A stretch of DNA of 64,000 nt from Pseudohongiella sp. O18. Its GTDB lineage: Bacteria > Pseudomonadota > Gammaproteobacteria > Pseudomonadales > Pseudohongiellaceae. The first letter of the stretch is position 1; every line of letters starts with the position of its first letter. Position numbers and translations under genes: made by a program. This document shows positions 1 to 10,647 of this stretch, in pieces. Location of the stretch: positions 1,426,001-1,490,000 of the forward strand of contig NZ_JAJSAR010000001.1 in NCBI RefSeq assembly GCF_021729085.1, read 5' to 3'. The notes beneath the pieces are model-generated. The model ran no database searches. It was not told where the DNA came from and saw nothing but the letters and a program-made list of their open reading frames with translations.

Positions 1-682
1 TTTCGCGATGGAACAGGAAGTCCGTGGCGCGCCACTGATCATCCAGCACTGCGCGGGCGCGATAGGCATTGATGACCTCTTCACTGACACCCTGGCCGCG
101 CAGCCAGCCACCGGAATGACTCTCTTTAAATACACCGCCTACAAAGCGGGAGCGATAGAACAGGCTGTCTGGTGCAACAGTGACATAGGCTGCGGTCAGG
201 CTGGGTGGCGCTGAAGCGGCTGCCAGGTTGGAGGTGATGCCGGGGGCGGAAGTACCAAAGATACCAATCTTGCCGTTGCTGAATGACTGGTCGGCAATCC
301 ATTCAACCGTGTCGTAGCCATCTTCAATGTCCGTTTCGAAGGGTCGGTTTTCACCTTCTGAGTCATAGCGGCCGCGCACATCCTGCGAGACCAGTGCGTA
401 ACCACGCTCATTGTAGGTGGCAGCGCTGCGGTCGGCGCCATCTTTGTCATAGGGGGTTCTTGTCAGCACCACCGGCCAGGGGCCATCGCCTTCTGGCAGG
501 TAGATGTTGGTTGCCAGATTAACGCCGTCGCGCATCGGGACCATGACAACGTCTTTGGTCTGGGCGAGGGCTGTCGTAGCAAATAAACCAATGGTATTGG
601 CGATCAGGAGCAGTACAAGAGTAAGTGCATGATTTTTAATGGCCTGCACATGTCTTTGGGCGTGGTGCTTGTTCTCAGGCAT
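1..682 (-). CDS. CocE/NonD-family (X-Pro dipeptidyl-peptidase S15-like) exported hydrolase, 3' part missing
   Basis: N-terminal 227 codons of a hydrolase whose C-terminus runs off the left edge. The ATG at 682 opens a signal peptide of about 40 residues ending in a T-A-L-A-Q type cleavage site, so the enzyme should be periplasmic or secreted. It then shows V-P-M-R-D-G-V, the Q-D-V-R-G-R motif typical of CocE/S15 proteins, and G-T-S-A-P-G, the nucleophile elbow with the expected catalytic Ser. The family hydrolyses esters or acyl-peptide bonds; the substrate cannot be read from this part. It lies downstream of pyp-pcl on the same strand with a 69-bp gap, so it could be read through from pcl, but a functional link to the photoreceptor is not implied. 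Confidence 0.85.
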   Translation of the reverse strand, partial: MPENKHHAQRHVQAIKNHALTLVLLLIANTIGLFATTALAQTKDVVMVPMRDGVNLATNIYLPEGDGPWPVVLTRTPYDKDGADRSAATYNERGYALVSQDVRGRYDSEGENRPFETDIEDGYDTVEWIADQSFSNGKIGIFGTSAPGITSNLAAASAPPSLTAAYVTVAPDSLFYRSRFVGGVFKESHSGGWLRGQGVSEEVINAYRARAVLDDQWRATDFLFHRE

Positions 683-751
683 GGGTGAGTCCTCAGTTAT
701 TTTTTCACCCATATTCCACTATTTTCATGGCAAAAAAAAGCCTGAGTGTGA

Positions 752-2056
752 TCAGGTCACAGTAAAAGCGGAGCGGAAAAGTCGTGTGCCCTCTATGCGT
801 GGGAAGCTTTCTGGCTGCCAACTGATGACCTTGCCCAGAGAAGAGCGCGGGAGACTGGCCCCGACAACTACCGATGCCGGTGGTGGCACATTGCCAAGAC
901 GTGCATTCATCCAGTCGTTGAACTGTTGGCACCACAGGGTGGATGGCTGCATCCTATGCTTGAGTGCCAGAAACATATGCAGTTGACGTTGACTGTCGGA
1001 GCCGCTGGTTTTGATCACTGCGGCGGCAACATCTGAATGTTGCTCCATGATCTCAGCAAGTGCCGATAGCTGCACATTATGGCCATTGATCTTGATGGCA
1101 GCATCCCGTCTTCCGAGCAGCTGGATTGTCTCGGGTCCGGTTTTGAGCAGATTGTCGTGCAGTTCGACCTCAAGATCAGACTGACAATGTTGTAATTTCC
1201 AGGTTTGAAGATCCTGCTGCAATTGCCAATATGGCAGAAGTTGGTAGTCGCTTCCATCCTGCGCGCGATAAGCAACACCAGCCGATTCGGTGCTGCCATA
1301 AATTTCAAGCAGACAGGACTGTGGAAATCTCTGACGAATCGCGCGGGCGATATCGGTCGGTAACGCCCCGGCAGAGCTGATACCGATAAAGCGGTCGGGG
1401 AGTTTCATGTCCAACTGCAGCAACAACTGCCAAAGGTCGGGTGTGCAAATCAACACATCACCGTCTTTGAGGGTTTTAACCCATGTGGTCGGCAGGGAGG
1501 CCGCAGGATGTACCCGATAAACAGGTAGCGACATGATGGCGGGCAGCAGCTGGCTCCAGATGAAGCCGTAGATATGATGAGAGGGCACCGTCGAGACCAA
1601 TCGTCCAGGTGCCACATCTAATCCATTAAGAACCTGCTCAAATGCCTGGCACTCTGTCAGAAGGTGGTCGACAGTGTGCAGAGTCATTGCCGGCGATCCG
1701 GTTGAACCAGATGAGTAGAAACCAATCTGCGAGTCATCGGCCTGCAGGCTGCGTTGCATGACTTCCAGCCAGCCCTGAAAGGATCGCCGGGCCAGCAGCA
1801 GGTCGGACAGGCCGGTGCGGTCAAGTCCGAGGCTGCCAGCGGCACGGCTCGCCATGCTGATCATATCCAGAGAGTTCATGGCGAACGAGCGCGGATCGTC
1901 CAGCAGGCTGGCGGGATCAAACTCTGGATCTGCCAGCAACTCAGACAGCCCGCGGCGCTGCAACACATCGCGCAGGAAATCCCGCAGCCAGCGTTGCAGC
2001 CCATCGCTGTCAGCGTTGGCGCCGCAGCCTGTGGAAGTGCGCCACCATACCGTCAC
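752..2056 (-). CDS. pcl: 4-coumarate-CoA ligase of the photoactive-yellow-protein activation type
   Basis: 434-residue AMP-forming acyl-CoA ligase. Visible motifs are the P-loop S-S-G-S-T-G-S (115-121), E-I-Y-G-S-T-E-S-A-G (251-260), the hinge G-R-R-D-A-A-I-K-I-N-G-H (315-326) and R-S-S-L-G-K with the probable catalytic Lys409. It is shorter than plant-type 4CL (about 540 aa) and resembles the subfamily found beside pyp genes, which makes p-coumaroyl-CoA for attachment to the PYP cysteine. The GTG start lies 2 bp after the pyp stop, so the two genes are almost certainly cotranscribed and translationally coupled. No tyrosine ammonia-lyase, which would make the p-coumarate, is in the window. 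The function is inferred from the neighbour and motifs; motif-level recognition is strong. Confidence 0.88.
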   Translation of the reverse strand: MTVWWRTSTGCGANADSDGLQRWLRDFLRDVLQRRGLSELLADPEFDPASLLDDPRSFAMNSLDMISMASRAAGSLGLDRTGLSDLLLARRSFQGWLEVMQRSLQADDSQIGFYSSGSTGSPAMTLHTVDHLLTECQAFEQVLNGLDVAPGRLVSTVPSHHIYGFIWSQLLPAIMSLPVYRVHPAASLPTTWVKTLKDGDVLICTPDLWQLLLQLDMKLPDRFIGISSAGALPTDIARAIRQRFPQSCLLEIYGSTESAGVAYRAQDGSDYQLLPYWQLQQDLQTWKLQHCQSDLEVELHDNLLKTGPETIQLLGRRDAAIKINGHNVQLSALAEIMEQHSDVAAAVIKTSGSDSQRQLHMFLALKHRMQPSTLWCQQFNDWMNARLGNVPPPASVVVGASLPRSSLGKVISWQPESFPRIEGTRLFRSAFTVT

Positions 2057-2058
2057 GG

Positions 2059-2439
2059 TCAGAGACGTTTAACGAAGATCCAGAAGCTGCCACCAACCAG
2101 AGCGGGTTTCATATGAACTTTTACTTTGGTGGGGGTCATCTGATAGTCGAAAGTGTACTCCAGCATCACGCTGCTGTGGTCTTTAACGACCTTGTCGAAT
2201 GCACCCTTGAATTTTGGTGTGTTGGTGCAGGGCGCAACATCGGTAAAGAAATTTTTACCGATTACCTGTGATGGCGTGCGTCCAGTGATAGCGCCTTCGG
2301 TCTGATTGTACTGAATGATTTTCCCGGTACTGTCCAGCTGGATGGCACCAAACGCAAGACCATCAATTTCGCTGCTGCTCATTGTGGCGAGTTTGTTTTC
2401 CAGGTCATTGGCGCCAAAATCGATTATTTCCAGAGACAT
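2059..2439 (-). CDS. pyp: photoactive yellow protein (blue-light PAS photoreceptor)
   Basis: 126-residue PAS-fold photoreceptor; Halorhodospira halophila PYP has 125. Every chromophore-pocket residue of that protein can be placed: Y44, E48, T52 and R54 (Y42, E46, T50, R52) and the chromophore-carrying C71 (C69) in D-V-A-P-C-T. The gating methionine M101 (M100) is in Y-Q-M-T-P-T-K-V. A one-residue deletion falls in the loop near residues 84-90. The protein should bind p-coumaric acid as a thioester, absorb blue light and run a trans-cis photocycle in the cytoplasm. It has no output domain, so it must signal through a partner. The start is preceded by AAGG 7-8 bp upstream. The gene is followed at 2 bp by its activating ligase. 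The output (taxis, biofilm, pigment) is unknown. Confidence 0.97.
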
Positions 2440-2605: not shown

Positions 2606-3712
2606 TCAGGGTGAGGGTTCGGCTGTTGGCTGCTCTGCAGACCCGATAGGCTCTTCGCGCCTTAGACGGACCGAACCAGGGTTGCGGCGTGCGTAGGCAA
2701 TCATCCAGCGCAGGGCCATCAGTTCAGCCTGCTCAATAGACTCCGGGTCCATTTGCTCGCGCAGCTGAGTCAGGTAGCGGGGGGCCTGCTCGTTGCCAAA
2801 CCGGTAGGAAATTTCATACCACATATGCCCGATGGTCAGATTCTGTTCCAATCCCAGGCCATCGGCATAAATGCGTCCCAGGAAAAGTTGTGCCAGCGAG
2901 TCGCCACGGTGGGCGGCTTCATTGAACCAGGTGTGTGCCTGTTCATAGTCGCGCGGCAATTGCTCATTATTGCCGGAGGAGTACAGCATGCCCAGTTGTG
3001 TCTGTGCATCGCGCATTCCCTGTTCGGCAGCCATGGCAAACAGGTCGCGGGCTTTGAGAACGTCGCGTTCCACCCCCTGACCGGCGGAATACATCATGGC
3101 GGCATTGTACTGTGCATCGGCACTGCCGTTTTCGGCTGCCATCTCAAACCATGTCAGTGCCACCACCGGGCTTGCCTCGGTTCCCATGCCAGACAGGTGC
3201 ATGACGCCCAGATTGTATTGTGCGTCGCGATGGCCCTGACGGGCCGCTTCCTGGTACCAGCGGATGGCTGCCTCGTAGTCGCGCGGTCTGCCCTGGCCGT
3301 AGAAGTTCATGGTGCCGACTGCGTACTGGCCGTCCGCGCTACCCTGTTCCGCAGCCTGGCGGTACCAGTAGTAGGCCTCGCGATAGTCCTGGGGTATGCC
3401 TTCGCCGCGATCGTACATCAGCCCGAGGTTAAACTGCGCCTGCACAATGCCCTGCTGGGCGGCCAGTGCGTATAACTGCATGGCGCGTTCGTGATCAACC
3501 TGGGTGCCGATTCCCTGGTGATACATCAGGCCCAGATTGAACTGCGCCAGAGCGTGCCCAATCATCGCGCCTTCTGTGAAGTTCTCAATGGCTGTGTCGT
3601 AGTCTTCATCCTGAAAGGCCTGAAGTCCGACATTAACATCGTAGGATTGAGCCTGAGCGCCGAGGCTGGCGCTAGCAAGTAGTATTGATATGACTAGAAG
3701 GATGATTCGCAT
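2606..3712 (-). CDS. exported Sel1-like repeat protein
   Basis: 368 residues if translation starts at the ATG at 3712, which opens a clean signal peptide (M-R-I-I-L-L-V-I then A-Q-A-Q-S). A TTG 13 codons upstream would spoil the signal. The rest is about seven Sel1-type repeats of roughly 36 residues, each with an A-Q-x-N-L-G-x-M-Y then W-(Y/F)-x-x-A-A-x-x-G pattern. These fold as alpha-solenoids and act as protein-protein scaffolds, here in the periplasm. The C-terminus (last 40 residues) is non-repeat and charged. It lies between a PaaK-like ligase and pyp on the same strand, with 166 bp before pyp, so it may be a separate unit. The partner is unknown. Confidence 0.85.
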   Translation of the reverse strand: MRIILLVISILLASASLGAQAQSYDVNVGLQAFQDEDYDTAIENFTEGAMIGHALAQFNLGLMYHQGIGTQVDHERAMQLYALAAQQGIVQAQFNLGLMYDRGEGIPQDYREAYYWYRQAAEQGSADGQYAVGTMNFYGQGRPRDYEAAIRWYQEAARQGHRDAQYNLGVMHLSGMGTEASPVVALTWFEMAAENGSADAQYNAAMMYSAGQGVERDVLKARDLFAMAAEQGMRDAQTQLGMLYSSGNNEQLPRDYEQAHTWFNEAAHRGDSLAQLFLGRIYADGLGLEQNLTIGHMWYEISYRFGNEQAPRYLTQLREQMDPESIEQAELMALRWMIAYARRNPGSVRLRREEPIGSAEQPTAEPSP

Positions 3713-3775
3713 ATCAGCGATTGTAGCTTGAAGCCCCTCCCAGTGAAACAACTGTCCGATAAAGCGGGGCCAAAA

Positions 3776-5855: not shown

Positions 5856-7613
5856 CTATCGATTACTGAGCCAGACGCTTTGATAGGGCGCCAGAGTAAG
5901 CTGCGACTGATTGAGGGTGATGGGTGTGTCGCTGATCAGATCGCGCCAGTCATCCGTGTCAATCAGGTTAATGTCTGACAAAGAAATGGTCTGCTCAGTG
6001 TCTGACACATTGTTGAGTGCAAAAATACTCTGCTCGCGCTGCAGGCTTTGACGCCAGAACGCAAACACCGCGTCACCAAGGTGCAGCGTGAACTGTGTGG
6101 CATTAGGGTGGAAGGCCGGCTGTCCCTGGCGGATCTGTAACAGGTGTTTGAGCTGCTGGAGCACCTGGCTATGGTGGCTGTCCGGGTCGGCAAGGGCCGT
6201 ATTCAGGGCGTGTTGGGGCCAGCGGCGGCGATTGATATGGCGGTTGTGCTGTGTTCTCGCCACCCGCTCCAGATCATTGCCACTGCCTACCAGACTGTGA
6301 AAGTACAGGGCAGGAATACCTTCCAGAGCCAGCAGAATGGCATGTGCACAGATAAATCGCTGCAGGTGCCATTGATCGGGTCCCAGGTGACTGTTGGCAA
6401 TGGTGAAGGAGAGGGCATCCCACAGGCTGATATTCAGTTCATAGGGGCGGCGCGTCAGGCTGGAAGTGGCTCGCCAGGACACCAGTCCACCAGCTCTCTC
6501 TGTGGCGGTAATAAGATCGTGTATTTCCTCATCACTCAGCAGGCCTTCTGCCGGACGCAATCCGATACCGTCATGCGAGGCAATGAAGTTAAAGTAAAAG
6601 GTTCCCATCTGTGCCGGCGGCATGCTCATCAGCCAGTTTTTAAGGTGGCGGCAGTTGCCGTTCAGCAATGTGAACAGCAGCAGAGGTGGCAGGGAAAAAT
6701 TGTAAATGCTGTGCGCTTCGTTGGCATTGCCGAAGTAGCTCAGATTCTCCCGTTTTGGAATATTGGTTTCGGTAATGATGATGGCGTCGGGATTGGCGTT
6801 TTCGATAAGCGCACGTAGCAAGCGGACAATCTCATGTGTCTGTTCCAGGTTCAGACAGACGGTGCCAATTTCCTTCCAGATGAACGCAACAGCATCGAGC
6901 CTGAAAACACTGACCTTGCGATCCAGATACAGTCGAACAATGCGGACAAACTCCACAAGGACTTTAGGGTTGCTGAAATCAAAATCGACCTGATCATGAC
7001 CGAAGGTGCACCAGACATGTTTGAGGCCGTCTGCTGTTTCGGTCGGACGCAGCAGGTCGCTGGTTCGCGGGCGAATGACCTCGCTCAGATCCAGCTCCGG
7101 GCTGGCGCAGAAAAAGTAGTCCGCACCAGGATCAGTGCCAGCAACAAAATTCCTGAACCAGGGGTGTTCGGAAGAACAATGATTAATGACCAGGTCGGCC
7201 ATCAATCGGAAATGCGCAGCGATATCTTCTATGTCCTGCCAGGAGCCTACTGCAGCATCTACCTCTGTGTATTCCTTGACGGCGAAACCGTCATCGGAGC
7301 TCCATGGAAAAAACGGCAGAATGTGTACGCCGGTAATCGCTCCGCGCAGGTGCGTATCCAGGAAGCTGCGGAGTGCCTGCAATGGCGTATGGGGTGCCGG
7401 CGTATCCGCGTCCGGCAGCACATTGTCGGCGTAACAGATCAAATACGAGTCACGCTCGCTCCAGTGACCTGGTTGTCGCGCAGACTGGCTTGCTTCGGGG
7501 GGCAGCCGCATCTCTTCCAGCAGCTGGCGTGCCACAGCTTCGATCGCCTCTGACGATAGTTCGGCGTAAATATGCGTCAGGTGATTGACGACACGCTGAA
7601 ACAGATCTGTCAT
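5856..7613 (-). CDS. ggp: glucosylglycerate phosphorylase (GH13 subfamily 18 sugar phosphorylase)
   Basis: 585 residues of the sucrose-phosphorylase-like GH13_18 family. The likely catalytic set is visible: nucleophile D240 in V-F-R-L-D-A-V-A-F, acid/base E282 in I-T-E-T-N-I-P, and transition-state Asp348 in A-S-H-D-G-I-G. The T-E-T-N-x-P and S-H-D-G-I-G-x-R-P forms are those of glucosylglycerate phosphorylases, not sucrose phosphorylases. The reaction is glucosylglycerate + phosphate to alpha-glucose-1-phosphate + D-glycerate in the cytosol. Its start overlaps the end of gpgS by 4 bp (ATGA). Last in a four-gene operon that also contains glycerate kinase, it supplies the breakdown arm. Substrate assignment rests on the context plus the motifs. 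Confidence 0.85.
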   Translation of the reverse strand: MTDLFQRVVNHLTHIYAELSSEAIEAVARQLLEEMRLPPEASQSARQPGHWSERDSYLICYADNVLPDADTPAPHTPLQALRSFLDTHLRGAITGVHILPFFPWSSDDGFAVKEYTEVDAAVGSWQDIEDIAAHFRLMADLVINHCSSEHPWFRNFVAGTDPGADYFFCASPELDLSEVIRPRTSDLLRPTETADGLKHVWCTFGHDQVDFDFSNPKVLVEFVRIVRLYLDRKVSVFRLDAVAFIWKEIGTVCLNLEQTHEIVRLLRALIENANPDAIIITETNIPKRENLSYFGNANEAHSIYNFSLPPLLLFTLLNGNCRHLKNWLMSMPPAQMGTFYFNFIASHDGIGLRPAEGLLSDEEIHDLITATERAGGLVSWRATSSLTRRPYELNISLWDALSFTIANSHLGPDQWHLQRFICAHAILLALEGIPALYFHSLVGSGNDLERVARTQHNRHINRRRWPQHALNTALADPDSHHSQVLQQLKHLLQIRQGQPAFHPNATQFTLHLGDAVFAFWRQSLQREQSIFALNNVSDTEQTISLSDINLIDTDDWRDLISDTPITLNQSQLTLAPYQSVWLSNR

Positions 7614-8836
7614 TTATTGATGAACTCCTCTGTATCTGCATCCACTGCTGCCCGGATTTGCTCAAGAATATCAGGGACGGCGCTGCATACCCGATTCCAA
7701 CTGGGGATGAAGGGGGTTTCCATGGGATTATCGAGAAAGTAGTCACCAGCCTGTTTGATATTCTGGGCGAACAGTTCCACTGCCTGTTCTTCCTTGTGAA
7801 TGTCGAGTGTCAGGCCGTTGATCAGGGCGTCGTTGCGGTAGGTTTCAACAAAATCCAGCGCGATGCGAAAGTAGGTTGCCTTGAGTGTGCGAAAGGTCTC
7901 GCTGGACAGCACCACACCATTGGTCGCCAGTTTTCTGAAAATGGCTTTGGCAATATCAACAGACATTTTTGACAGACCGGCGGCGGCATTGTCGGCAGAC
8001 AGATCCTGATGTTTGTGATCGTAGATATCGGCAATATCGACCTGGCAGATGCGGTTGGTGGAATAGTTGCGATACATCTCGGACAGTATACCAATCTCCA
8101 GTCCCCAGTCGCTGGGGATGCGCAGGTCATGCACCACGTCCGTCCGGAATGAGAACTCACCCGCGAGTGGGTAGCGGAAGCTGTCCAGGTAGTCCAGATA
8201 GTCCAGAGAGCCAAGTACCTTTTTTAAGGCGCGCAGCAGTGGGGTCACCATCAGGCGGCATACCCGGCCATTGATCTTGCCGTCGGCGACGCGGGCGTAG
8301 TAGCCCTTGCAGAATTGATAGTTAAAACCCGGATTGGCTACCGGATAAATCAGTCGGGCGAGTAATTCTCTGGAGTAGGTAAGGATGTCACAGTCATGCA
8401 GGGCGATGGCCTGGCTTTTGCGAGACGCCAGTGTGTAACCCAGGCAGTACCAGACATTGCGGCCTTTGCCCGCTTCTGTTGGCGCCAGGCCCATCTCCTG
8501 CAGGCGCGCATCAATGGCGCGCAGCCTTGGGCCGTCATTCCAGAGTATTCGGTGATGCTGGGGCAGCCGCCCAAAGAATTCACCGGCATGCAGGTATTGC
8601 TCCTTGTCGGCGCGGTCGAGGCCTATCACAATCTGGCTGAGGTAAGGAACTTTCTGCAGCTCGTCGATGATATTGGGCAGCGCTGGGCCCTCCAGCTCGG
8701 AGAACAGTGATGGCAGAATCAGCGTCATCGGACGCATTTTTGAAAATACCTGCAGCTCGTATTCCAGCTCTGGCAACGGCCGGCGACTGAGATTGTGGAG
8801 CGTGGTCACAACGCCGTTTTGATGAAAATCTCCCAT
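7610..8836 (-). CDS. gpgS: glucosyl-3-phosphoglycerate synthase (GT81)
   Basis: 408 residues, the usual length for bacterial GpgS. A GT-A fold is indicated by L-P-S-L near residue 41 and the metal-binding D-C-D triad (148-150) in I-A-L-H-D-C-D-I-L. The G-x-x-x-N-V-W-Y-x-L-G segment before it is typical of GT81. The enzyme transfers glucose from an NDP-glucose to 3-phosphoglycerate, giving glucosyl-3-phosphoglycerate. It begins 4 bp after the phosphatase stop, whose final codons supply the AGGA ribosome site, and overlaps ggp by 4 bp, so the operon is tightly coupled. Confidence 0.9.
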   Translation of the reverse strand: MGDFHQNGVVTTLHNLSRRPLPELEYELQVFSKMRPMTLILPSLFSELEGPALPNIIDELQKVPYLSQIVIGLDRADKEQYLHAGEFFGRLPQHHRILWNDGPRLRAIDARLQEMGLAPTEAGKGRNVWYCLGYTLASRKSQAIALHDCDILTYSRELLARLIYPVANPGFNYQFCKGYYARVADGKINGRVCRLMVTPLLRALKKVLGSLDYLDYLDSFRYPLAGEFSFRTDVVHDLRIPSDWGLEIGILSEMYRNYSTNRICQVDIADIYDHKHQDLSADNAAAGLSKMSVDIAKAIFRKLATNGVVLSSETFRTLKATYFRIALDFVETYRNDALINGLTLDIHKEEQAVELFAQNIKQAGDYFLDNPMETPFIPSWNRVCSAVPDILEQIRAAVDADTEEFINK

Positions 8837-8840
8837 GCTT

Positions 8841-9716
8841 TTATCCTCGCTGTATATTACCTGGCTGAATCAGTTCGCTGATGCACTCCGCCCACCCGGC
8901 GGGTCCGGTCGACTGACTGATGCGTAAGTTTTTGATGTTGTTATGAGTTGGCAATGCGTGTGCTGGAGAGCGAATCAGCACGGGGTGATCGGCGGCCTGC
9001 AGCATGGCCAGATCATTGCCGCTATCGCCCAGTGCCACGGTTTCGAATGGTTTCTGGCAGATATCCCGGTAGCAGGCCGAAAGCGCCTGCAGTGCGCGCC
9101 CCTTATCGCTGGGTCCCAGCACATGAATAAAGCGTCCGCCCTGAAGCAGCGTCAGGCCCAGCGCGGCTACCTGCATTTTGAACCCGGCAAGCGCCGGCTC
9201 ACTGTCGCGCCAGATTAGCGGTTCGCTGTAGCGTCTTTGTTGTGCCTTTCGCGCCTGCTCTGTATTCAGTCCGGTCAGCTCGCAGACGGTGTCCACATCC
9301 GTCATGCTCAGTACCAGAAAGTCGAATGAGGATTGCAGCGGCATCAGTTGTTCGTGGATCGAGGCCAGATCGGCGCCCAACACACAAACAGACAATGACT
9401 GGTCGCCGTCCAGCGCTTCAATGCTTTGCCAGGTGGCGGAGCCCATTACCTGTCTGGCCTGTTCCGCAAAGGCCTGGTCAGGGAAGCAGATGGCGGAGCC
9501 GTTCTCGACAATGAAGGGGCAGTCCAGGTGCAGCTCGCTGGCCAGTGACTGACACTCTTCGATGGTTTTGCTGGTGTTGAAAATTACCGGAATCTGTTGC
9601 GCCTGCAGCTCTGCCAGCGTGCTGAGCGCGGCGTCCGCACTATAACTGTAATGGTCGATCAGTGTGCCATCCAGATCGGTGAATATCAGTAGCCCGGGGC
9701 GCTGCTCAATGTTCAC
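8841..9716 (-). CDS. gpgP: glucosyl-/mannosyl-3-phosphoglycerate phosphatase (HAD IIB)
   Basis: 291 residues from a GTG at 9716 that overlaps the end of the kinase gene by 11 bp and has a GGGG-type ribosome site; a longer reading would run further into the kinase. HAD motif I is F-T-D-L-D-G-T-L with nucleophile D14 and D16. Motif II sits in N-T-S-K-T, and G-D-S-G-N-D is near the C-terminus. These belong to the mannosyl-3-phosphoglycerate phosphatase group. Beside gpgS it should dephosphorylate glucosyl-3-phosphoglycerate to glucosylglycerate. The exact sugar preference is inferred from the neighbour. Confidence 0.87.
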   Translation of the reverse strand: MNIEQRPGLLIFTDLDGTLIDHYSYSADAALSTLAELQAQQIPVIFNTSKTIEECQSLASELHLDCPFIVENGSAICFPDQAFAEQARQVMGSATWQSIEALDGDQSLSVCVLGADLASIHEQLMPLQSSFDFLVLSMTDVDTVCELTGLNTEQARKAQQRRYSEPLIWRDSEPALAGFKMQVAALGLTLLQGGRFIHVLGPSDKGRALQALSACYRDICQKPFETVALGDSGNDLAMLQAADHPVLIRSPAHALPTHNNIKNLRISQSTGPAGWAECISELIQPGNIQRG

Positions 9717-10647
9717 GATACAACCCCGCTGTGATGCGATGATTCGTGTCCAGACTAAACACAACATCCGCTTTTGAAGGTAATGTAGACAGCGAGTGAG
9801 CCGTCAGCCGTTGATAGTGCGCGATAAAGCGGCTGATCTGTTCGGCATTCATCAGTCTCAGCTTTGGCGCCACGCTTGCCGATGTTGAATCAGCCAGGCG
9901 TCTGGCCAGCTCTTGTTCCTGATGCAGGCGCCAGGCAAACACACAGTCGAAATCAGGGGCTTTCACCATCACCAGCATGTCCAGCTGCCGAAACAGGATC
10001 TGGTAGTCAGCTGCCAGTGCCGCGTTGACGTAATGGCGCCACAGGCCACCCTGGTCTTCTGCGACCTCCAGTGAATTGACCGGTTCGGCAAGCTGCTCAT
10101 CTGACTGCGGGCCAAGGCCAATACACCAGCCCTCAAAGAGCACCACGGCGACTGGTTCTGTCAGCCGCTGCCAGTTCTCAGCGGCCACTACGTCGTCGAC
10201 TGCTTTATCGAATGCCGGCAACTGGACAGGCTGGCCGTGCTTGAGCCGGGTAATGGTATCCAATGCGAGCTTTGTGTCATGAGTGCCTGGCACGCCCCGT
10301 GTTACCAGCAGGGGATGCACAGACATGGCAAGGTCCTGCCGTGCGCGCCGTGACAGATAGAAATCATCCAGCGACAGTGCAGCAGTGGTTAAGCCATGAC
10401 ATTGTTCCAGTAGCATCTTGAGTGTCCGTGCCAGCGTGGTCTTACCTGTGCCTTGTGCACCATTTATGCCAATGCAGACTGAAGTTGCTGTTTTATGGTG
10501 CAGATTGGCGATGTGCTGAGCCAGTGGTACGAACCACGTCACGGCATCCTGGAGCCAGGTGTCGGGAAGATTTTCCTCAATCATGATCAACGTCAGCAGA
10601 TCTTCGGCCGATTGCTGGCTGCTGGTCTTTTCCGGTTCTGTGGCCAT
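9706..10647 (-). CDS. D-glycerate 3-kinase-like P-loop kinase
   Basis: 313 residues. The Walker A motif G-A-Q-G-T-G-K-T-T (63-71) is followed by S-L-D-D-F-Y and a G-V-P-G-T-H-D-T segment, as in plant-type glycerate 3-kinase (GLYK) and yeast/bacterial homologues. It would phosphorylate D-glycerate to 3-phosphoglycerate with ATP. In this operon the substrate would be the glycerate released by glucosylglycerate phosphorylase, and the product is the acceptor used by GpgS, which closes a cycle. It is the first gene of the operon; an NtrC-like palindrome lies 45 bp upstream of its ATG. Confidence 0.85.
   Translation of the reverse strand: MATEPEKTSSQQSAEDLLTLIMIEENLPDTWLQDAVTWFVPLAQHIANLHHKTATSVCIGINGAQGTGKTTLARTLKMLLEQCHGLTTAALSLDDFYLSRRARQDLAMSVHPLLVTRGVPGTHDTKLALDTITRLKHGQPVQLPAFDKAVDDVVAAENWQRLTEPVAVVLFEGWCIGLGPQSDEQLAEPVNSLEVAEDQGGLWRHYVNAALAADYQILFRQLDMLVMVKAPDFDCVFAWRLHQEQELARRLADSTSASVAPKLRLMNAEQISRFIAHYQRLTAHSLSTLPSKADVVFSLDTNHRITAGLYREH

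Follow-up and report, generated by a model that had tools for sequence, protein, structure and literature searches.

In Halorhodospira halophila the photoactive yellow protein (PYP) operon has the order pyp-pCL-TAL, TAL being the gene for tyrosine ammonia-lyase (PMC12826048). PYP operons without TAL have already been reported: among 113 predicted pyp operons TAL was counted in 7 and pCL in 42, and both explanations, a TAL elsewhere or uptake, were named (PMC12826048); TAL adjoins at least 10% of functional pyp genes (PMC9664959). We analysed an operon of this kind, likewise composed of pyp and a pCL-type ligase gene (pcl) with no TAL, located in a 64-kb stretch of the genome of Pseudohongiella sp. 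O18, hereafter the window. Pseudohongiella is not named in the main texts of the two papers, whose supplements were outside the search. Their counts appear to be of operons or of gene neighbourhoods. The present search covered the whole genome and the genus, and most pyp-bearing members were found to lack the lyase family. The questions addressed are how the thioester is delivered to apo-PYP in cells and where p-coumarate originates in TAL-less bacteria, in a model system isolated in 1985; what is added to present knowledge is the whole-genome and genus-level lyase test, a closed TAL site and a carrier-like domain in the ligase.

The source genome (G000; G numbers denote genomes and L numbers loci) is 3.47 Mb long, in 4 contigs, and 99.99% complete. 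The pyp product scored 181.4 bits against TIGR02373 (photoactive yellow protein), above the curated equivalog cut-off of 143.05, and is 63.7% identical across 124 aa to a solved PYP (PDB 2kx6). The six pocket residues named in the original prediction, Y44, E48, T52, R54, C71 and M101, were all confirmed at those numbers; they equal Y42, E46, T50, R52, C69 and M100 of the solved protein and are invariant across 11 PYPs of the genus. The ATG of pyp is preceded by AGAAGG. The pyp/pcl junction reads TGA-CC-GTG, so that the predicted 2-bp gap stood, although the genes, which had been called fused, are adjacent, as two separate open reading frames (ORFs).

The best of 18,950 NCBIfam models for the pcl product was TIGR02372 (4-coumarate--CoA ligase), and the proposed pairing of PYP with a chromophore-ligase-like protein was right; since the score of 208.6 bits lies below the equivalog cut-off of 334.7, we call the protein pCL-type. 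Only 3 of 10 other PYP-operon ligases scored passed that cut-off. Compared with the H. halophila operon (PMC12826048), the window has the same single-domain PYP, the same pocket and pcl as the next gene downstream, but it differs in the missing TAL, in a genome without a PF00221 match, in a ligase below the TIGR02372 cut-off and in the replaced Asp of the DSL motif. The window ligase is 28% identical to that of L015, the locus listed under this comparison.

A search of the whole G000 genome with PF00221, the aromatic ammonia-lyase family, gave no match. The same search gave matches in 17 of the 56 genomes in the set of relatives, with the own genome counted, and in 5 of the 14 used as controls. 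The original prediction had correctly noted that no TAL is nearby. Of its two explanations, supply of p-coumarate by a TAL/HAL homologue at another place in the genome was not borne out; uptake of p-coumarate of plant or algal origin is still the favoured one. The absence also spans most of the genus, which that prediction had missed: PYP was found in 11 of 15 genus genomes, own counted, and PF00221 in three of the 15 (G003, G008 and G013, all carrying pyp), the other 8 of the 11 pyp-bearing genomes having no PF00221 candidate at all.

Lyases were picked by BLAST and typed by motif 1, in its customary reading, and by motif 2. Those of G003 and G013 are TAL-type (motif 1 His-Leu, motif 2 NQD), and the top solved match of the G013 lyase was 2o6y, which we take to be the Rhodobacter sphaeroides TAL. 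The G008 lyase (L105) is FHGCG-type with NQD, and its best solved matches belong to the same set; for neither the G013 nor the G008 lyase was any NCBIfam model above its cut-off. Histidine is given for motif 1 of TALs, and at motif 2 Glu for HAL and Gln for TAL/PAL; FlxA, a proven TAL, resembles HAL at motif 1 and TAL/PAL at motif 2, and the same paper warns that the substrate of a lyase is not settled by sequence alone (PMC3992019). No ketosynthase was found in 10 ORFs scanned around the G008 lyase. F/Y-HGCG lyases like that of G008 were also seen in PYP-bearing G303, G423 and G342.

For a contrast outside the genus, 22 genomes with a PYP match were used: 15 of the 25 loci of one PYP search, after removal of the 8 loci from the genus, of the second strain of a species and of a fragment of 46 residues; 6 of the 65 genomes matched in another, namely the five others above the PYP cut-off and the best of those below it; and G039. 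PF00221 was present in 20 of these 22, versus 3 of the 11 pyp-bearing genus genomes, a contrast given with no p-value because genomes within a genus are not independent. By motif 2, 15 of the 22 have a TAL/PAL-type lyase and 5 a HAL-type only (one a fragment); where the lyase showed neither NQD nor NQED (L081, L101, L102) or was partial (L095, L096), the genome was classed by another copy or piece. The two lyase-less genomes are G334, whose PYP match is below the cut-off, and G436, a metagenome-assembled genome in which the label of the pyp contig gives a coverage of 0.5. Four extra matches of a phylum-wide PYP search (E <= 1e-15), three in frames of at least 900 aa and one of 185 aa, were below the cut-off and were excluded from the counts.

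In G013 the TAL gene is flanked by a radical SAM gene of the PA0069 type and by xth. In G003 it likewise precedes xth, with no radical SAM gene seen upstream in the stretch examined. In G000, G007, G008, G009 and G011 only 34-44 nt separate the radical SAM gene from xth and no TAL lies there, a closed site; in the other genus genomes of this search xth had no radical SAM match next to it. A tree built for 10 genomes from PYP, Sel1 and Xth placed G003 and G007 as sisters (0.99), G011 next (0.83) and G013 outside. If TAL was inherited vertically, this would imply at least two losses while pyp and pcl stayed; alternatively, TAL was transferred into G003 and G013. TAL-bearing G003 and its TAL-less sister G007 offer a natural contrast for the dependence of a photoreceptor on a neighbour's metabolite.

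With no PF00221 lyase and a closed TAL site, external p-coumarate is the likely source and another route the rival. Aging algae release p-coumaric acid, a cue for other marine bacteria (PMC9873259, PMC7497051). A protein of the tannase/feruloyl-esterase family PF07519 was found in 3 of 12 genus genomes searched (G000, G001 and G011); the two lyase-bearing genomes among the 12, G003 and G008, had none. The G000 protein has a signal-peptide-like N-terminus, judged by eye, and its best PDB matches are MHETase and feruloyl esterase B; it matched no NCBIfam model. Because other TAL-less members have no PF07519 protein, the link is only suggestive. A p-hydroxycinnamoyl-CoA hydratase/lyase for catabolism was also sought and rejected, with none above cut-off in 18 genomes and generic relatives only.

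We put at about even the chance that this is a working PYP system whose precursor does not come from a known aromatic ammonia-lyase and in which external p-coumarate is loaded through the carrier-like domain of pCL, described below, or through CoA. The cell would take up p-coumarate or a close analogue, which probably stems from decaying algae or plants and may be released by the apparently secreted PF07519 hydrolase. The pcl product would adenylate it, and the acyl group would then move to a phosphopantetheine arm on Ser62 of the carrier-like domain, either in cis or in trans, or else to CoA; exchange of the thioester onto Cys71 would give holo-PYP, which would sense blue light. For this system we infer the substrate, its uptake, the pantetheinylation of Ser62 and light sensing.

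Synthesis in the cell by a route outside PF00221, for instance from 4-hydroxyphenylpyruvate that is reduced and then dehydrated, or by a promiscuous lyase with a different fold, would account for the 8 genomes that keep pyp and pcl without a PF00221 match, and a photoreceptor living on scavenging only would often stand empty. We nevertheless judge it unlikely, as we know of no aerobic route to p-coumarate outside PF00221, and, AcpP aside, the one carrier-protein gene that was found in G000 lies in a cluster (L192) with no ketosynthase in the 20 ORFs of L192 and L193 that were scanned, a part of the ORFs there. For that reason the cluster was not taken for an aryl-polyene pathway, and an aryl-polyene route through it to a p-coumaroyl thioester was rejected.

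The first ~100 residues of the pcl product look like an acyl or peptidyl carrier protein, a feature that the original prediction had missed and of which our literature search found no mention for PYP-operon ligases. Ligases were picked by BLAST, with 32 other loci examined; G334, SAR324, SpiroGSL and Acidisphaera showed no pcl-like ORF. The alignment held 28 ligases, 11 from the genus and 17 from outside it; L020 and the L001-L008 duplicates were not used, and a truncated ligase ORF of G201 (320 aa, the Ser also there) was excluded. Serine occupies the putative phosphopantetheine position, Ser62, in all 28, although the 17 non-genus ligases are only 24-31% identical to that of the window. L015, a locus whose PYP shares 95.2% identity with the solved one, also has the domain in its ligase. 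The predicted fold of the domain is all-helical, with Ser62 at the start of a long helix; this is consistent with a four-helix carrier, whereas the Foldseek search noted below returned no matches.

Profile comparison by hhalign supports the resemblance. The 28 ligase N-termini aligned to a set of carriers with a probability of 87.3, an E-value of 3.8e-6 and a score of 35.7, the serines being in register, and the 17 non-genus N-termini alone scored 34.7, against a maximum of 12.5 in 50 shuffles of the same. The carrier set was drawn from 30 PF00550 loci, giving 25 picks, of which 7 were discarded on inspection by eye (six seemed to be in a wrong frame; L148 was correctly framed yet off-centre), leaving 18, or 14 distinct; before this step the probability was 42 and the E-value 2.6e-4.

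The carriers had been picked with an acidic/Asn-Ser-hydrophobic motif as anchor, which biases the alignment toward the register obtained. PF00550 gave no match to the window pcl and weak matches in 4 of the 28 aligned N-termini (best E 1.1e-4), Foldseek returned no matches for the isolated domain, and the Asp of DSL is missing in all 11 genus ligases. The last two points could mean that the domain is a structural relic or a divergent N-terminus of the adenylation domain, with pCL simply making p-coumaroyl-CoA. This fits the description of the pCL reaction as transfer to CoA (PMC12826048), and in the VIA comparison of the full-length pcl model 49 of the 50 matches listed begin at model residue 1. 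We hold it to be a serious alternative but a somewhat improbable one, in view of the invariance of Ser62 at such low identity, its place at a helix start in register with carriers, and a candidate non-ribosomal peptide synthetase carrier of the genus (L148, GGSSL; a PF00550 match) that also has no Asp before its Ser.

Among the closest PDB folds to the pcl model are DltA, PigI (with PigG) and PltF (with PltL), stand-alone adenylation enzymes serving carriers. In pcl, by contrast, the carrier-like domain is fused N-terminally to a shortened adenylation domain, and the final acceptor would be a photoreceptor cysteine. As the domain is common to the 28 aligned ligases, it narrows the question of mechanism to one residue, S62. 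A further idea, speculative and in our opinion improbable, is that in this genus PYP is built only with a neighbour's p-coumarate, for instance from senescing algae, so that blue light and a dying-algae cue would be sensed together as in an AND-gate; the loader would be a self-charging carrier-adenylation enzyme handing its pantetheine thioester straight to the photoreceptor cysteine. We know of no photoreceptor for which carrier domains are used in this way.

The pyp-pcl pair is not a chance find: it persists in 11 of the 15 genomes of the genus, with low dN/dS, and both genes are absent from the other four, two of which are 72% and 85% complete. From this joint presence and absence, pcl has no visible use apart from PYP. 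Its frame is open, without internal stops, in all 11 genomes. Rates were estimated by NG86 for G000 with L001 and for pairs among L003, L006 and L007; the values are rough, as most dS beyond the closest pair are near or above 1. The dN/dS of pcl was 0.19-0.39 and that of pyp 0.03-0.04 (four pairs each), with 0.03-0.08 for the S15 hydrolase gene (two pairs) and 0.02-0.10 for Sel1; pcl was the fastest-changing gene compared, against 0.02-0.10 for pyp, S15, Sel1 and a 408-aa gene together. Window pcl is 90% identical to that of L001 and 41-47% to those of six other genus loci. The gene is constrained yet quick to change. An acceleration caused by TAL loss was considered and found not clean, as the pcl of TAL-less G007 is as near to that of TAL-bearing G013 (69%) as is the pcl of G003.

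The fast change of pcl, its altered P-loop in G002, G005, G011 and G014, and a substitution in the G001 PYP (see below) could mean that the ligase loads another aryl acid (ferulate, caffeate or a cinnamate analogue), giving a spectrally shifted PYP; with the six named pocket residues unchanged in the 11 genus PYPs, we find this quite improbable. That the operon is decaying and makes no holo-PYP, as the missing precursor enzyme and the rapid evolution of pcl might suggest, is very improbable, given open frames, dN/dS well below 1 and the shared presence or absence of both genes in 15 of 15 genomes.

In G001 (L036) His replaces Tyr at the position of Tyr98 of the solved PYP, the sole case in 32 aligned PYPs, which might alter the photocycle. 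G013 (L039, contig C6) has, besides a normal pyp, an additional distant PYP/PAS-like match of 31% identity over residues 13-116.

The features are collected in Table 1, in which the roles of the P-loop and of the catalytic Lys are presumed.

Table 1. Features of the pyp locus and of related loci; coordinates are window positions unless a locus is named.
Feature	Position	Strand	Remarks
pyp, photoactive yellow protein, 126 aa	2059..2439	(-)	ATG start; NCBIfam and PDB match
Chromophore Cys71 codon of pyp	2227-2229	(-)	
pcl, pCL-type adenylate-forming ligase, 434 aa	752..2056	(-)	GTG start; 2 bp after pyp
Carrier-protein-like N-terminal domain of pcl, aa 1-103	1748..2056	(-)	
Putative phosphopantetheine site Ser62 of pcl	codon 1871-1873	(-)	N-terminus of second long helix
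Shortened adenylation domain of pcl	752..1747	(-)	P-loop YSSGSTGSP; A10-type Lys409 (codon 830-832)
CocE/NonD (S15) hydrolase	2..712	(-)	runs off window; next gene downstream of pcl
Sel1-repeat protein	2606..3751	(-)	upstream of pyp; syntenic landmark
PaaK/FlxY-like adenylating enzyme, 444 aa	3776-5110	(-)	upstream of Sel1 gene
FHGCG-type PF00221 lyase, TAL/PAL-type motif 2, in G008	L105 8742-10307		near hybrid histidine kinase
Cluster with AMP-ligase, small ACP, lipid-A-type acyltransferase, HlyD, C39-peptidase ABC exporter, divergent AurF-type N-oxygenase and enoyl-CoA-hydratase genes	L192 9089-15541		G000 contig C3, about 87-94 kb

The Sel1 gene was matched in all 15 genus genomes, including the four without pyp; its product is therefore probably not a PYP partner and was rejected as such. 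Beside Sel1 in the pyp-less genomes (L173, L174, L176 and L181; ~1.5 kb on each side) no pyp or pcl remnant was found. In one of these, G012 (L176), an ORF of 293 aa, lipoprotein-like by eye, occupies the place of pyp-pcl between the Sel1 and S15 hydrolase genes. The S15 hydrolase was rejected as a coumaroyl esterase: the linkage across 8 loci is only loose, with the gene near pyp in 6 of them at varying distance.

In the flexirubin starter system of Chitinophaga, FlxA/FlxY, p-coumarate comes from a TAL and is then activated by a ligase (PMC3992019). G000 differs in having no PF00221 match, and its FlxY-like protein scores 79 bits against a cut-off of 520. The gene is identical between G000 and L001, without synonymous change, whereas the other genes compared have dS of 0.16-0.46, and none of the 6 other genus loci in the comparison had a match to it; it looks recently acquired or converted. 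Farther along the window (5856-9767, minus strand), ORFs judged by eye to be sucrose-phosphorylase-like, glycosyltransferase-like and HAD-phosphatase-like stand in a row, which suggests synthesis of a compatible solute (glycerate-sugar).
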